Shown piece by piece: positions 10,792 to 21,497 of a DNA stretch of 46,724 nucleotides. A program made the position numbers and the translations under genes. Location: positions 1-46,724 of the IMG/VR virus record IMGVR_UViG_3300009597_000008; one strand, 5' to 3'. The notes below the pieces were generated by a model. The model was given only the letters and a program-made list of their open reading frames with translations, ran no database searches and was not told the origin of the DNA. The stretch comes from a virus. Positions within the stretch are counted from its first letter, which is position 1. The number at the start of each line of letters is the position of its first letter.

Positions 10792-10926
10792 GCGGGCCTC
10801 CTTCCTAGTTGGTCCTGATCTCAATCCGCCCTCCGGACTCCCTCGGGAGCCCGGGGGGCGGCCCCCGCCTCAGGGAGGGGACGGGGACCGCCGGTGCGTC
10901 GGGTTAGGACGCGCGAGTCGTCAGGA

Positions 10927-11886
10927 CTAGGCCTTGACGTCCATCAGGTGGCCGAAGTTCTTGTCGAGCAGGAGCTCGTCCACGTGATGGCGGAACCGGA
11001 AGACCTCCGAACGGCTCTGGTTCTCCGGGTACGACTCGGCCATGACCTCGTTCGGGCTGTCCGGCACCCACAGCATCGTCCGGCCGAGGCAGGGGGTGTT
11101 CATCGGCGAGCCCTTGTCGGCGATGACGGCCAGCATGGCGTACGTGTCGCCCCAGATGTCGGCGACGACCGCGGCCTGGCCCTCGATCGCGCTGTTGCGG
11201 ACGGCGCCGCCGATGATGATCCGCTGCAGGCCGAGGATGCCCGGGAGGGCGGCCTTCAGGAGATCGAGCGTGATGATCGGCGTGGCGGGCAGCTGCGCGC
11301 GGATGCCCGTGTTCTTGAGAAGCCCCGGCACGAGACCGGCGCCGATGATGAGCGCGCCGGCCTTGCGACCGCAGTTCTTGCGAACCACTTCCGTCTTGTC
11401 GACGATCTGGCCGATGATGTCGGTCCCGACCGTCGTCCACGGGTTGGCGGAGAAGTCCGTGAAGTACGCGGCGCCCGTGAAGAGCGCCGTGTCCTGGACC
11501 GCCGCCGCGACGCGCTTCTCGTGGCGCCGCATGAGGATCTCGGCCCCGACCTTGGTCGCGACGTCGTCGGCGTCGAAGTCGTTCATGTAGAGCGACTTCT
11601 CGGACGCGTCGATCGGGACCTCGATGCCGTGCTCCTTGCAGGCGAAGGATTTGTCCTTGGCCCCGAAGTCCGCGCGGTTGTAGGTCGAGCCCTTCGCGCG
11701 CGCCGTCTCGACGTCCTGCAGCAGCGTCTCCCGCGTGATCGCGGAGAAGTCGCCGGACTTGTGCTTGACGCGCGCGGTCGGGAACACCTCGAGTCCGACG
11801 AACTCCGAGGCGTCCGCCACGTGCTCCATGAAGGCGACGCCGAGCTCTTCGCGCGGCGCGCCATAGGTCGCGTAGTTCACGGCCAT
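10927..11886 (-). CDS. Major capsid protein (319 aa)
   Basis: Forms the icosahedral shell. Length, the position just after the small decoration protein, and the sequence pattern (helical N-arm, alternating strands in the middle, long Ile/Ala-rich segment at about 200-260) fit an HK97-fold capsid protein of the type coupled with lambda-like decoration proteins. ATG at 11886 follows AAGGAAA. The spacing to the decoration gene, about 70 bases, is typical for highly expressed capsid genes. Confidence 0.85.
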   Translation of the reverse strand: MAVNYATYGAPREELGVAFMEHVADASEFVGLEVFPTARVKHKSGDFSAITRETLLQDVETARAKGSTYNRADFGAKDKSFACKEHGIEVPIDASEKSLYMNDFDADDVATKVGAEILMRRHEKRVAAAVQDTALFTGAAYFTDFSANPWTTVGTDIIGQIVDKTEVVRKNCGRKAGALIIGAGLVPGLLKNTGIRAQLPATPIITLDLLKAALPGILGLQRIIIGGAVRNSAIEGQAAVVADIWGDTYAMLAVIADKGSPMNTPCLGRTMLWVPDSPNEVMAESYPENQSRSEVFRFRHHVDELLLDKNFGHLMDVKA

Positions 11887-14449: not shown

Positions 14450-17400
14450 CTAGAAGAAGTCCGATCCATCCGACATCGCAGCCTCGAGAAGTTCGTCGCG
14501 ACTCTCCGCGACCGCATGCTGAAGTGATAGATCCCGGTTCGCCTTCTCTTCGTCGATCCCCAGATAGGCGTTCCTCGCATCCAGCCCCTGGGACATCCGC
14601 GCATTGGCTGAAGCCGAAACGAGCAGGTGGGCCGCCGCGGCCGTCGAGAAGGACCCGAGGTCGGCCATGGCGCCCATTCGCACGCCGTGCGAAACGCCAG
14701 CATCGGCCGAGCCGCCGATCGAGGACAGCGAGCCCGTGGCGCTGAGGCTGACGAGCCGCGCGACCCGCAGCTTGGGTTCCGGCTTCTTGACCTGTTTCTG
14801 CTTGAGCGCCTTCTCAAGCAGCTCCCGCCAGTTGCTGGCGAGGCCTCCGCCGGTACGCGGCGCGGCCTGGGTTCCACCGACGATCGTCGTCTGCCCGTGG
14901 GCCTCCGCGGACTCGATGCCCGTCGGCGAGATGACCTGCGGCGCCGGAAGGGAGACCGTGGTCGAGCCGTGCTGCTCGTCCGACGCGATCCCGCCCGGCC
15001 GAACCTGCTGAGCGAGACTCTCCTGGCCGTGGGCCTCGGCGCTGGCGATCCCGCCGGGGATGACCGTCTGCGGAGCGCCCGCGACCGAGATCGTCGTGCT
15101 TCCGTGGGCCTCGGCACTCGCCGCGGGGTCCGGACGCACCTGGAGATTGACCTGGGGCGACCCGTGGGCCTCCTGTGACGCGATGCCGGCGGGAGCGATC
15201 GTGCCCTCGGCGGCTTCCACGCTGACGGTGGTGTTGCCGTGGGCCTCCCCCGAGGCGACGCCGGACGGGATGATCTGGAGGTTGAGCTTCAGGCTGCCGT
15301 GGGCCTCCTGGGAGGGAACGCCGCCGCCGTCAAGGAGTTCAGGGACCCCGTTGCGCTCGAAGGCGCCTAGGTCGTACGCAGAACCCACGGGGCGGAAAGC
15401 GCCGTTGAAGTCCTTCCGGACCTCCTCGTAAGTTCCGCCGTCGTCGATGGCCACCGAGCCGCCGGCGAGCGTGAAGTCGTCGTTTGGGGCGTCGGTGAAA
15501 CCCGGGGTCGTCGTGTGGAGATTGTTGTCGTTGACGAAGCCCGTGCTTCCGGTGCCCTCGAGGAAGGCTTCGTCTCCGACTCCATCGGCGTAGGAGAGGT
15601 TGTTGACGAGCACGCAGTTCGTGCAGTCGCCCGAGAAGAAGGCGACCATCTTGTAGAACCCGCTCGGGGCGGTCGCCCCCACGTACCCTGTGTTGTTGCC
15701 GAAGAAGACATCGTCGGGAGCAGGCTCGGCGCCTCGACGAGCGATGATCAGCGCCTTGAAGTCGTTGGACAGTCCGCTGCCGTAGGACCCGTCTCCCACG
15801 AAGACGCAGTTCCGAATGGCCACCTTTCGAGCGGAAACGTAGACCGCGGTCTGCTGGACAGGTCCCCCCTCAAACCAATCCGCTTCGACAAAGATGTTCT
15901 CGACCCGCTCGTCCACTTCTGAATTCTGCGGGCGGATGTCCAGCGAGACCGAAGCGCCGCTCCAACGGTTCCGGTAGAAGCTGACGAACATCGTCTTTGG
16001 AACAGCGGAGCTGTTGTCCTGGCTGTGAAGCTTGAGGCCCGTGTTGACGGAGTCGCCCTCCATCTCGCAGTGAGCCACCACCCCCTGGTGCCAGGCTCCA
16101 CTTCGAAGCAGATGCTGGGTTCCCGGGGAGTGAAAGTGGGATCCGAGGAAAGCAACGCGCCTTCCATCCAGGATGGTGTTGTACTGGCCCACGTCGTGGA
16201 TCGTTCCGCCCACGAAGAAGATCGCATCGGGAAGGACGTCGTTCGTGTCGAAGGTCCCGTCCAGGCCGGAGTCCCAATTGTGGACGTCGCAGTCCAGGAA
16301 GAGGGCGTTGGTCCTCGCCGCCGGGTCGGAGGGGAAGTGGAGACCGACCTCGTCGTCGAAGCCGTCGAGCTCGATGCTGATGAGCCTGAAGTCGTCGCAA
16401 TCGACACGAACCGGCCGGACTCCGCCAGCCGTGTTGTTCCAGCGAGGACGCGCGCCCGTACCGTAAGCGCCGAGGGTTACGTTGTCTTCGTCCCACGTCC
16501 AGGTGGAATTCGCGGTGTAGACGTCGCCACGCTTGAAGAGGTAGCGGGTGTCGGCGGCGAGGTTGTCCTGGACCTTCTGGATCGTGGCCCAGGGAGAGCC
16601 CGTCGAGAGGCCGTCGTTGGAGTCGTTCCCGTCAGTCGTGGAGATGTACCTGGTGCTTCCGGAAAACGCCGAAACAGTGACGGTCTGGGCATACCTGCGG
16701 ACGACCCCTCGCTCGTCTCGCATCGTCAGGATGGCGATGTAGGTCCCGGGATTCTCGTACACGTGCGCGGCCGTCGGACCCACGTGGTAGTTCTTGCTCC
16801 ACCCATTGCTCCAATTGCCCGAGCTGGGGTCCCCGAAGTCCCACTCGCAGTGGATCTTCCGCCACGGGACGCCGCTGGGAGGCTGCCTGACTCCGCTCGT
16901 GTAGGAAGGCGAAGGGGTGTCGCAGGCAGAGAACAGGACTCCGTACGGCGCCTCTCCCGAGGTCCTGTGCGCGAACGTGGCCGCCTCGGTCCCGAAGAAG
17001 ATCTCCTGGAGAATCTTCGGCGACCCGTGAGCCTCCAAGGAGGAGATCGCGCCTGGCAAGACGCTCAAGCCGGAACTGACCGACACCGACGTGGATCCGT
17101 GGGCCTCGCTGGAGGACGCGCTCCCCGGCGCGACGCTCTGGTTGACCTTGGTCGAGCCGTGGGCCTCCCCCGAGGCGACGCCGGTGACGGACAGACGCCC
17201 GTCGTCCATGACCTGGAATGCGATCACGCCGCAGGGATCGTTGGTCGTGGCCACGGAGCCACCCGAGACGGTGCCTGGGTCGGATGTGGGGGTGCAAGTC
17301 TGGATCTGAAGCATCAAGCCGGGCGTGAGGTTCGCCGTAAACTCGGCGACGGCCTCGACCCAGTTTCCACCGGATTCGCCCGTGGCGTCGCCTGCGGTGT

Positions 17401-17854
17401 TGTTGTCGTTCTGCCCCACGAGGGCGACGGCCAACGATCCGGCTTTCGTGGTCTGGACCGTCGGCATCTGCGGATCGGTGGCGTGGCTCAGGAAGGCGAA
17501 ATTCCGGACGTTGTCCTTGATCGTGGCGCCCACGTAACCGCTGAAGGAGTAGATCCGGGCCGCGCGCTGCGTAGTGACCGCGGGGTTCCCGAATGCCACA
17601 GCCGCGCCGTCTTCCGAGCCGTCGGCGATCCTGCCGAACACCCACATGCGGGCGATGGTGGACTCGATCACGTGCGGGCCGGACAGGAGCTCCCACCCCG
17701 ACGGCGTGCTGGGGGCGGTGGCGGTCCCCTCCCAGAAGACATGACCAATCAGGATGTCGTTCGCATCCACCGTCGCGGGGCAGAGAGGAGACAGAGCCGC
17801 CCCGCTGGTCTCGGTGGCGACCCCGGATCCTGAACCCTTGAACGCGACTGACAT
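14450..17854 (-). CDS. Large adhesin/depolymerase-like tail protein with EAHG repeats, PKD and beta-helix (1134 aa)
   Basis: Domain order from the sequence: an N-terminal Ala/Gly/Thr-rich beta domain (about 1-220); three copies of a short repeat centred on Glu-Ala-His-Gly (225-280); a PKD-like domain with Trp-Asp-Phe-Gly-Asp and a Val-Tyr-Glu-Asn-Pro-Gly-Thr-Tyr strand (290-385); a right-handed beta-helix, pectate-lyase-like (392-825); seven more EAHG repeats (848-991); and a helical C-terminal tail. Beta-helix proteins in phages usually bind or cleave surface polysaccharide. Catalytic residues cannot be chosen by eye. Its placement between portal and protease is unusual. Confidence 0.85.
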   Translation of the reverse strand: MSVAFKGSGSGVATETSGAALSPLCPATVDANDILIGHVFWEGTATAPSTPSGWELLSGPHVIESTIARMWVFGRIADGSEDGAAVAFGNPAVTTQRAARIYSFSGYVGATIKDNVRNFAFLSHATDPQMPTVQTTKAGSLAVALVGQNDNNTAGDATGESGGNWVEAVAEFTANLTPGLMLQIQTCTPTSDPGTVSGGSVATTNDPCGVIAFQVMDDGRLSVTGVASGEAHGSTKVNQSVAPGSASSSEAHGSTSVSVSSGLSVLPGAISSLEAHGSPKILQEIFFGTEAATFAHRTSGEAPYGVLFSACDTPSPSYTSGVRQPPSGVPWRKIHCEWDFGDPSSGNWSNGWSKNYHVGPTAAHVYENPGTYIAILTMRDERGVVRRYAQTVTVSAFSGSTRYISTTDGNDSNDGLSTGSPWATIQKVQDNLAADTRYLFKRGDVYTANSTWTWDEDNVTLGAYGTGARPRWNNTAGGVRPVRVDCDDFRLISIELDGFDDEVGLHFPSDPAARTNALFLDCDVHNWDSGLDGTFDTNDVLPDAIFFVGGTIHDVGQYNTILDGRRVAFLGSHFHSPGTQHLLRSGAWHQGVVAHCEMEGDSVNTGLKLHSQDNSSAVPKTMFVSFYRNRWSGASVSLDIRPQNSEVDERVENIFVEADWFEGGPVQQTAVYVSARKVAIRNCVFVGDGSYGSGLSNDFKALIIARRGAEPAPDDVFFGNNTGYVGATAPSGFYKMVAFFSGDCTNCVLVNNLSYADGVGDEAFLEGTGSTGFVNDNNLHTTTPGFTDAPNDDFTLAGGSVAIDDGGTYEEVRKDFNGAFRPVGSAYDLGAFERNGVPELLDGGGVPSQEAHGSLKLNLQIIPSGVASGEAHGNTTVSVEAAEGTIAPAGIASQEAHGSPQVNLQVRPDPAASAEAHGSTTISVAGAPQTVIPGGIASAEAHGQESLAQQVRPGGIASDEQHGSTTVSLPAPQVISPTGIESAEAHGQTTIVGGTQAAPRTGGGLASNWRELLEKALKQKQVKKPEPKLRVARLVSLSATGSLSSIGGSADAGVSHGVRMGAMADLGSFSTAAAAHLLVSASANARMSQGLDARNAYLGIDEEKANRDLSLQHAVAESRDELLEAAMSDGSDFF

Positions 17855-19291: not shown

Positions 19292-21064
19292 TTAGGCGAC
19301 CTCCGTCTCAGGCGGGTACTCGAACGTCTGCTCGATGTCTTCCGCCTTGCCGTCCGCGCCGCGAGACTTGATCTTCGTGGTGCGCCTGATGGGCGCCGGG
19401 GTGGGCTTCACCGTGAGGTTGACGATCGGCTGGATGACCGTGCCGCGCGCCGCCTTCTTGGGCGCCTTCTTCGCGGGCTTCTTCTCTTCCTTCTCCGCGC
19501 CCGCATCAACCTCGGCCTCCGCTCCATTGACCTCGGCTTCCGGATCCCCGCCGCCGTTGACCGACGCGGAGCGGCCGGCGAAGTACTTCCAGTCCACGCG
19601 CACCCCGGTCTCGGCCTCGATCTCGTCCGAGATGCGGATGGCGTCGACCGTCTCCTGCTTGAGCTCGGCAACGATCTCGTCTCGGTCCTGATCGCGCGAC
19701 TTCAGGACCTGGGCGTGCGTGGCGTACCCGCGGTCGACCATCTCGCCCCAGGCCTTCGTCTCCTGCAGCTGATCTATCCACGGGAAGGTCGGCTTGATCC
19801 ACGCGTGCTTGAGGGTGAGCGCCGGATCCGCGGGGGCCGTGAGCTTTCCCGACCGGATCCCCTCTTCGATGCACCACCGGTACAGGCCCCGGTAGACGCG
19901 ACGCTCGAGGAGCTGCTGCCAGCCGATGAACGTCTGGAACGCCTGCTGGAGGACCGCCCGGGTCTGCGAGTAGTTGGACTTCGTCCAGTCGAGGGACGTG
20001 ATCTCGAGGGGGATCCCCAGCGGCAGCCCCAGCAGCCGGAGGAACATCGTGATCGACGCCGGGAAGTTCGCGCCCGGGATGTTGCGGTCGACGCCCCGCA
20101 CCTCCTCGTCGACTTCGCCGTAGAAGGCCGTGCCTTCGGCCCAGTCCTGGACGCGCGTCGTGACGTCCGGCGCGTCGCTGCCTTCCTTGGCCGGATCCTC
20201 CTGCGACGTCTGGAGTCCCGTAGCGCCGCCGTCCTTCTTGTTGATGATGAGCGACAGGCGGGCGAGCTGCTGCCACGCAAGCGCCTCGGCGTCGAGCACG
20301 CAGTTGATTCGGTGCATCACCGCGAACGCGGCTTGCATCGGAGGCACGCCGCGCTTCGAGCTCGGGCGGTCTGTGTGAACCGGGAAGAGGAAGTTCTCCC
20401 GACGCACCAGGCGGGCAGCCGAGGCCTGGATGTGGCCCATCTCGGAGTACGGGGCCACCCAGTAGCCGGTGATGACGCCGTTCTCGTCGCGCTCGAGGCC
20501 GTCCGTCTGGAGGGACTTCCCGCGGATCTGCTCGCTCTCGACGAGCTGGATCTTCCCCAGCTTCGTCCGCATGATCCCCGTGTCGCCTTGGGACAAGACC
20601 TCCTTCGCCACCTGCAGCTCGACTTGGTGGCCGGACAGGAGCCCGCTGACCTCGGGTTCCTCCCAGTACTCCTTCCAGTAGGCCTCGTACGCCGCGTCGA
20701 GGTCCTTCTCCCCTGTCTTTGCCTGCAGCACGAAACCGGTCCCGACGATGTAGCCGGCCGCGCGATCGCGCATGCCCTGGAAGAGCGGATTGTCGCGGCT
20801 GAACTCTCGCGCCATGTTCGCGAGCTGGTCGCGATTGAAGCGCAGGTGCAGGTCTCCCGATCCACCGTGGGAGAAGCGCCCGTCGGAGGCCGCGACGCTG
20901 ACGGAGTGAAACCCGAGCTGGGTGAAAACGCCCCGCTGGCCTCCCTTGTCGATCGACAGCGGGACCGACCGGTTGAACTTGGCGGGACGCAGCGCCTGCG
21001 GCCGGTCCTTGATGGGCTTGGCGCCGGCGGGGGGACGATTCTTACGGGAGGCCTTCGCGCTCAT
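19292..21064 (-). CDS. Portal protein, lambda type (590 aa)
   Basis: Dodecameric portal at the packaging vertex. Sequence resembles the lambda gpB portal family: near residue 60 a segment Arg-Asp-Asn-Pro-Leu-Phe followed by Gly-Met-Arg-Asp-Arg-Ala, typical of the N-terminal clip region, and a long helical middle. The last ~100 residues are Lys/Ala/Pro-rich and probably disordered. ATG at 21064, giving an ATGA overlap with the upstream gene, is preferred to a start three codons earlier. Confidence 0.9.
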   Translation of the reverse strand: MSAKASRKNRPPAGAKPIKDRPQALRPAKFNRSVPLSIDKGGQRGVFTQLGFHSVSVAASDGRFSHGGSGDLHLRFNRDQLANMAREFSRDNPLFQGMRDRAAGYIVGTGFVLQAKTGEKDLDAAYEAYWKEYWEEPEVSGLLSGHQVELQVAKEVLSQGDTGIMRTKLGKIQLVESEQIRGKSLQTDGLERDENGVITGYWVAPYSEMGHIQASAARLVRRENFLFPVHTDRPSSKRGVPPMQAAFAVMHRINCVLDAEALAWQQLARLSLIINKKDGGATGLQTSQEDPAKEGSDAPDVTTRVQDWAEGTAFYGEVDEEVRGVDRNIPGANFPASITMFLRLLGLPLGIPLEITSLDWTKSNYSQTRAVLQQAFQTFIGWQQLLERRVYRGLYRWCIEEGIRSGKLTAPADPALTLKHAWIKPTFPWIDQLQETKAWGEMVDRGYATHAQVLKSRDQDRDEIVAELKQETVDAIRISDEIEAETGVRVDWKYFAGRSASVNGGGDPEAEVNGAEAEVDAGAEKEEKKPAKKAPKKAARGTVIQPIVNLTVKPTPAPIRRTTKIKSRGADGKAEDIEQTFEYPPETEVA

Positions 21065-21399
21065 CGCGGGCACCTCCCGCGGACGAACGTCGCCTGGCGT
21101 GGCGTGGCCGAGTCGGCGATCGGCAGCGACTTCGCCTCGTCCAGGAGCTCGGTGATCTCCCTGAGATACTGTTCACCGTTCCGCTGGTGCGACTTGCCTT
21201 GGACGGCGTATCCGCCGGCGAGTACGTATTCGGTGACTTCGGTGTGGTGGGCGGCGAGGCTGGTGAGATAGGCCGACGTGCCCTTCGCCAGGGTCTTCCA
21301 CGCGAGCTGTGTGAATCCTGGAGCGGCCAACTCCCTCCGCGCTTTCTCCGGAATGCGCGCGGATCGCGGTGGGAGTAGGATCCGGTCGACTACTCCCAC
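21061..21399 (-). CDS. gpW-like head-tail joining protein candidate (112 aa)
   Basis: Lies exactly where lambda W sits, between large terminase and portal. The C-terminal half has a Gly-Gly-Tyr turn followed by a charged helix (about 63-90), loosely like gpW. GTG at 21399 has GAAGGA five bases upstream, and both the ribosome site and the start are inside strong inverted repeats (see 21368-21428). A TTG start about 23 codons later is possible, since GGAGGGAG precedes it but too closely. Assignment is positional. Confidence 0.5.
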   Translation of the reverse strand: MGVVDRILLPPRSARIPEKARRELAAPGFTQLAWKTLAKGTSAYLTSLAAHHTEVTEYVLAGGYAVQGKSHQRNGEQYLREITELLDEAKSLPIADSATPRQATFVRGRCPR

Positions 21400-21428
21400 C
21401 GGATCCTTCGCAGGGGAGCTACCCCTGC
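21368..21428 (-). promoter_or_regulatory. Leader with mutually exclusive hairpins over a start codon
   Basis: Three perfect inverted repeats lie in 61 bases: 21410-21416 with 21422-21428 (7 bp, 5-nt loop); 21377-21386 with 21398-21407 (10 bp); and 21368-21378 with 21390-21400 (11 bp). The last two share bases and cannot form together. The 10-bp stem covers the Shine-Dalgarno AAGGA and the GTG start at 21399; the 11-bp stem covers the start but leaves AAGGA free. This arrangement suggests translational control of the gene opening the portal/head operon. The function is inferred; the pairing is visible. Confidence 0.6.
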
Positions 21429-21444
21429 TACGCGCGAAGATTGA

Positions 21445-21474
21445 GTCTTAGGTGATTCCGGGACCGCGCGTCAA
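21445..21474 (-). promoter_or_regulatory. Candidate sigma-70-type promoter for the head operon
   Basis: On the minus strand TTGACG (21469-21474) is followed after 18 bases by TAAGAC (21445-21450). The -35 box is a near-perfect match and the -10 is weak. It lies in the only sizeable gap of the packaging/head operon and would place the transcript start near 21438, just ahead of the hairpin leader. Confidence 0.45.
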
Positions 21475-21482
21475 TAGGCTCG

Positions 21483-21497
21483 TTTTGCCCGGCAAAA
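21483..21497. promoter_or_regulatory. Operator-like palindrome TTTTGCC-C-GGCAAAA
   Basis: A perfect 7-bp inverted repeat around a single base, immediately upstream of the candidate promoter at 21445-21474, in an AT-richer patch of an otherwise GC-rich genome. Its size and place suit a dimeric activator or repressor. No other copy was spotted. Confidence 0.45.

Follow-up and report, generated by a model that had tools for sequence, protein, structure and literature searches.

What is the function of the overlapping inverted repeats that lie in front of the portal gene of the virus recorded in IMG/VR as IMGVR_UViG_3300009597_000008? The whole stretch of DNA analysed, called the window here, comprises 46,724 bases (positions 1 to 46,724 of that record) with a G+C content of 66%. 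Its minus strand carries the packaging and head genes in the order GpA-type terminase, a small zinc-ribbon-like gene, the leader containing the repeats, another small gene and a lambda-family portal gene. The portal protein gene (19292-21073, minus strand) was assigned by a profile match (PF05136, E 5.2e-42), and the small gene preceding it (21061-21330, minus strand) encodes 89 amino acids from a TTG start deduced from homologues. The original prediction described this small gene as gpW-like and the repeats at its head as an RNA switch. Comparison with the Pfam and PHROGs profiles gave no match of its product to the gpW family or to any other; the label reflects only the position and size of the gene.

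The inverted repeats themselves are real and well above chance expectation. The perfect 10-bp repeat (21377-21386 / 21398-21407) shares bases, as described, with a second perfect repeat which had been reported as 11 bp and actually spans 12 bp (21367-21378 / 21390-21401), and the third, 7-bp hairpin was found at 21410-21416 / 21422-21428. The minimum free energy (MFE) of a 106-nt minus-strand segment is −58.8 kcal/mol (z −5.9; 0 of 200 shuffles), and a 58-nt fold of the leader (z −6.8 against shuffles) ranks approximately tenth lowest in energy among 15,556 stretches of that length. The 106-nt fold joins all three hairpins into one structure, in which helix P1 closes a junction of P2, the 7-bp hairpin, and a long P3. 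The two alternatives of the original prediction correspond to the long P3 and to a shorter hairpin formed by the 5' strand of P3 with the apical region of P3. Three nearly identical contigs (99.6-99.98%) recovered from other metagenomes carry the leader unchanged, so it is not an assembly error; these contigs contained no variation in which covariation could be sought.

The mechanism first proposed for the repeats, in which one hairpin hides both AAGGA and a GTG start codon at 21399 and the other leaves AAGGA free, was not supported. If one bulged base is allowed, the 12-bp hairpin lengthens to 17 bp (GGATC...GATCC) and covers GGA of AAGGA, so that AAGGA is not freed by the long hairpin either. 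Moreover, the true start is probably TTG 21330 (minus strand), approximately 30 nt 3' of the folded core. In the relative L011, whose terminase and portal proteins are 52% and 47% identical to those of the window, the small-gene homologue starts with TTG and aligns to this codon; the corresponding TTG of L032 is preceded, 9 nt upstream, by an in-frame stop. On these two grounds GTG 21399 was rejected as a start, and the covered GTG is very probably unused. With TTG as the start, the ribosome-binding region would be placed at about 21328-21345, also some 30 nt 3' of the core. Judged by the homologues, translation most likely begins downstream of both stems, the outcome which the original prediction itself had regarded as speaking against it.

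A promoter and a palindrome had also been noted upstream. The palindrome TTTTGCC-C-GGCAAAA is present at 21483-21497, upstream of the promoter-like site, and is a possible operator. The promoter-like pair read from the sequence, TTGACG (21474-21469) and TAAGAC (21450-21445) separated by 18 nt (21445-21474, minus strand), is present as well, but its −10 element is poor and the pair was not listed by a consensus promoter scan of the window. In L011, L025, L032, L040, L086 and L146 the junction is preceded by a TTGACA-like element. Unlike palindromes occupy the same position in relatives, TTTACGGATCCGTAAA in L011 (L011:3111-3126) and TTTCACGGATCCGTGAAA in L039. Such varied palindromes just 5' of the promoter region occur in many relatives, including L011, L039, L040, L041, L048 and L050, and resemble the operators of diverging repressors.

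Scans with portal and terminase sequences, together with alignments, provided more than a hundred diverged loci. In IMG/VR phages of the clade in which the small gene usually starts with xAWTYSDW or a similar sequence, the motif GCGYAG (UCGUAG in L011) was found 99-112 nt 5' of the start codon, followed by the same fold. The repeats thus appear to belong to a leader RNA of about 115 nt, which is predicted to fold as a three-way junction of P1, P2 and a P3 of about 20 bp. In the window the core spans 21357-21433 (minus strand) and consists of P1 (21433-21430 / 21360-21357), J12 (A, 21429), P2 (21428-21422 / 21416-21410, loop UAGCU), J23 (GAA, 21409-21407) and P3 (21406-21361). Ten members were compared (the window, L011, L025, L032, L039, L040, L077/L085, L082, L086 and L146). 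The MFE fold of the core was identical in all ten: P1 with at least 4 pairs, J12 = A, P2 with 5-7 pairs, J23 = G-N-N and P3 with about 20 pairs, the P3 sequences being mostly unrelated between members.

The check by covariation across related phages, suggested with the original prediction, gave abundant compensatory changes. In an alignment of nine members (A9), 13 of 22 pairs were changed on both sides and 90% of the cells were paired; none of 500 shuffles matched this signal and slid registers had nothing comparable, although register 0 has an advantage here, the structure having been derived from the folds of the members themselves. Support independent of the supplied structure is provided by the covariance model (CM), which found L025, outside the training set (30.3 bits, E 5e-4), and also L217 (63.1 bits). 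The match of the window (54.6 bits, E 1.1e-9) was that of a sequence used to build the model. Since G-U pairs number 25 on the coding strand and 7 on the reverse strand, the conserved form is more readily explained as gene-strand RNA than as a palindrome in the DNA. A DNA-level element (an operator array, a cruciform, or a packaging or recombination site) that only mimics RNA hairpins is accordingly very improbable: near-palindromic repeats could fold in either strand and a palindrome lies nearby, but such an element would explain neither the excess of G-U pairs nor the nearly fixed distance to the start codon, and a DNA-binding site would need the sequence conservation which P3 lacks.

No Rfam covariance model matched the leader. 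The GAA junction raised the possibility of a hammerhead-like core, which was rejected by eye since the CUGAUGA strand is missing, and a CM match in L189 was discarded because it lies antisense within an apparent sugar-nucleotide dehydratase gene. The P2 loops hold a self-complementary 4-base word, AGCU in the window (21417-21421), L039 and L025 and GAUC in the others, which could permit loop-loop dimers.

The leader RNA can be divided into four segments (all on the minus strand) with alternative pairing partners. Segment 1 (21393-21409; J23 and the outer 5' strand of P3) could pair with segment 2 (21376-21389; the apical A' region) in the 10-bp alternative hairpin, or with segment 3 (21361-21380; the 3' strand of P3) in the long hairpin. 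Segment 3 could also pair with segment 4 (21328-21356), the ribosome-binding region with GGAGG at 21338-21334 and the start TTG at 21330-21328. As a potential contained in its sequence, the window has the 1:2, 1:3, 3:4 layout of a four-segment attenuator. The contact which replaces AAGGA/GTG would be made by segment 3 (21361-21380) with the actual ribosome-binding region: 21327-21341 is complementary to 21365-21379 at 13 of 15 bases (87% over 15 nt).

Segments 1 and 2 were complementary in all ten members. Dinucleotide shuffles gave combined p-values of 2.4e-8 for 1:2 and 5.5e-8 for 3:4 pairing over the ten; these values are not fully independent, as the members are related, and that for 3:4 was obtained with narrower limits of segment 4, chosen after a first, wider test had given p 0.012. 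In the window alone, p was 0.027 (1:2), 0.0075 (3:4) and 0.001 (P3). These segment duplex tests replaced an ungapped-stem scan which left the window and L039 unscored, at least in the window because the bulge splits P3. The 3:4 statistics were weak in L082, L085 and L086, and segment 4 visibly repeats part of the segment 1 sequence in L039, L146 and L040. In L217, found later, the junction is kept and the extra pairings are not significant (p 0.43 for 1:2, 0.20 for 3:4), partly because its segments consist nearly entirely of G and C. A second hairpin hiding the ribosome-binding site, P4 (p 0.025), is suggestive and too weak to claim.

We consider it rather likely, from these sequence comparisons, that the leader is a cis-acting RNA which regulates the operon of the small gene and the portal gene by exchange between competing folds. 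The element is probably an uncatalogued RNA switch which sets the timing or amount of head protein. The RNA switch of the original prediction thus stands in its mutually exclusive hairpins, found in 10 of 10 members with unrelated sequences, and falls in its AAGGA/GTG mechanism. The leader would be made by minus-strand transcription from the promoter just upstream. Segment 1 could pair either with segment 2 in the short hairpin, the earliest to be complete during transcription, or with segment 3 in the long P3, which would be complete approximately 12-18 nt later and be followed by P1; segment 3 could otherwise pair with segment 4, the Shine-Dalgarno and start region. The long P3 together with P1 would sequester segment 3 and favour translation, whereas the combination of 1:2 and 3:4 would hide the ribosome-binding region. 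The conserved P2 tip and junction may be the sensor at which a protein or a small molecule biases the choice, and the folds are supposed to exchange in the cell.

When the members inspected were folded stepwise, about 70-76 nt sufficed for the 1:2 hairpin, about 82-88 nt for the long P3 and about 94 nt for P1. In most members the predicted energy of the 1:3 fold was well below that of the alternative, by several kcal/mol, a gap which is exaggerated, since A' is cut by the limits set for the segments. The 1:2 hairpin may therefore be only transient. The constrained ON and OFF energies are not quantitative since the segment bounds overlap, and the modelled ON state did not clearly free the ribosome-binding region. 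As far as such rough energies indicate, the long P3 is in most cases the more stable, as would be expected if expression were the default and the block transient or induced.

The same predicted ground state would be expected of a static 5' structure, in which the junction would serve to protect the late mRNA or to insulate its translation, the alternative pairings being non-regulatory folding intermediates. Stabilising 5' hairpins are frequent in late phage mRNAs, and a G+C-rich hairpin followed by a U run, sought as an intrinsic terminator, was found in 0 of 11 junction leaders, that of the window included. We nevertheless regard a static structure as unlikely, since it does not account for the complementarity of segments 2 and 4 being kept while their sequences change completely, for the conservation of J23 and the P2 tip though unpaired, or for sister clades retaining the same logic with terminators.

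Of 63 further leaders which precede this type of gene in those sister clades, 42 had a hairpin resembling an intrinsic terminator 5' of the start codon, compared with 6.2 expected from mononucleotide shuffles under a generous hairpin definition. The triple 1:2/1:3/3:4 was individually significant in L047, L058, L108, L112, L113, L119, L124, L129, L135 and L138. In about ten such leaders the 5' arm pairs either with a near partner, giving the terminator-like hairpin, or with a far partner, which pairs in turn with a segment adjoining the start codon; four-segment logic thus occurs in two leader types of related phages. Control in the sister phages is probably exerted at transcription termination, because the same leader position carries the intrinsic-terminator-like hairpins. 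Hairpins of this type lie in the last ~110 nt before the small gene in L041, L047, L048, L084, L092, L112, L129 and others, and many have competing helices which reach the start codon.

Terminator-like hairpins adjoin the element in these relatives and in other phages with the P2 core, and the element lies directly 3' of a promoter-like site. Both features would also suit a nascent-RNA antitermination element which stays on the polymerase through the terminators of the late operon, like HK022 putRNA, a known RNA-only antiterminator (PMC9378689). That RNA is likewise a phage cis-RNA near a promoter, and terminator read-through is a possible role for the leader, but the gene context differs. Antitermination appears still less probable than a static structure, since the junction leaders themselves have no terminator and the complementarity to the ribosome-binding region would be left unexplained.

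A pattern scan for the P2 core detected it in IMG/VR contigs unrelated at the portal. There it is followed by an SU10-like portal gene in L194 and L214 (weak profile matches, E about 1e-7), a major capsid gene in L211 (PF05065, E 3.5e-54) or an HNH gene in L200, and L191 encodes a protein similar to the SU10-like portal of L194 and L214. An alternative hairpin that shows compensated changes overlaps a terminator arm in L191, L194 and L214. A terminator-like hairpin adjoins the core, which precedes SU10-like portal or major capsid genes, at L191:883-946, L194:1589-1654, L214:5693-5727, L211:2890-2983 (minus strand) and L216:400-444 (minus strand), and in L191 and L214 a start codon lies within a stretch complementary to the leader. 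The CM also matched before an excisionase-like gene of a Planctomycetota-phylum genome (L188:1501-1583, minus strand, 55.8 bits) and in L220, L221, L222 (minus strand) and L223 (plus strand) of the same phylum (34.6-47.7 bits; genes without a family match). A loose core pattern occurred in 7 of 392 genomes and in none with the reversed control. The genomes are taken as Planctomycetota because the search was centred on that of L064, a Pirellulaceae MAG. The isolated phages and plasmids searched gave no convincing copy of the P2 core.

These matches, few and partly weak, tentatively suggest, at somewhat less than even chances, that leader RNAs of this kind form a widespread, so far uncatalogued phage family, in which a conserved sensor (J12 A, P2 tip GG-CUGAUCC-CC, J23 GAR) is coupled to interchangeable platforms, terminator or RBS-hiding, through which structural genes would answer a common signal. 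The family would precede portal or major-capsid genes in several unrelated phage lineages and other genes in Planctomycetota genomes. The window has the loop UAGCU, as in L039 and L025, in place of the CUGAUCC tip, near variants of which occur in L011, L040 and L032 and which is present in the other members of the portal clade; the window is therefore linked to the wider set only via its portal-clade relatives.

By analogy, the leader is best described as a new RNA family whose regulation would follow a known principle, that of a four-segment attenuator or a riboswitch platform. With trp-type attenuators it shares the competing 1:2, 1:3 and 3:4 helices; what the last helix would hide is a terminator-like or start region in the sister clades and the ribosome-binding region in the junction clade. 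Unlike those attenuators, the junction leader has no visible leader peptide, carries an upstream three-way junction with conserved unpaired letters, belongs to a phage head operon and is absent from Rfam. Three-way-junction riboswitches similarly combine conserved junction and loop letters with variable helices and have a P1 strand near the expression platform, and the SU10-type portal leaders L191, L194 and L214 show a riboswitch-like succession of P1, alternative hairpin and terminator. In contrast to riboswitches, the leader lacks an Rfam match, and its assignment to a riboswitch class would require a ligand. Phages are also known to carry structured cis-RNAs such as manA, wcaG and c4 (PMC2864571) and those of the human-microbiome set (PMC8040213); the main texts of these studies do not mention portal or terminase genes. 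The searchable text of the structured-RNA literature gave no portal- or terminase-linked motif, and the wider literature no closer system.

Beyond a few models, little is known of how tailed phages keep their portal protein scarce and time the expression of head genes. A competing-fold RNA at the head of a portal operon, with terminator-like hairpins at this place in sister phages, brings portal control within reach of direct tests. Should several lineages share the P2 sensor, the ligand or protein that acts on it would be a point of common control over the late genes of environmental phages.

Some further features were observed. In the Pirellulaceae MAG, the large terminase gene (L064:3838-6051) reads in one frame, which one stop codon interrupts near query residue 258; this represents either a broken prophage gene or a read-through stop. 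The window's most stable local hairpin (10823-10890, minus strand; −43.9 kcal/mol per 58 nt) has no U run and sits just after the gene at 10927-11886. The region 14450-17854 (minus strand) encodes a 1134-aa protein with many spaced repeats of the EAHGS...V type in both of its ends.
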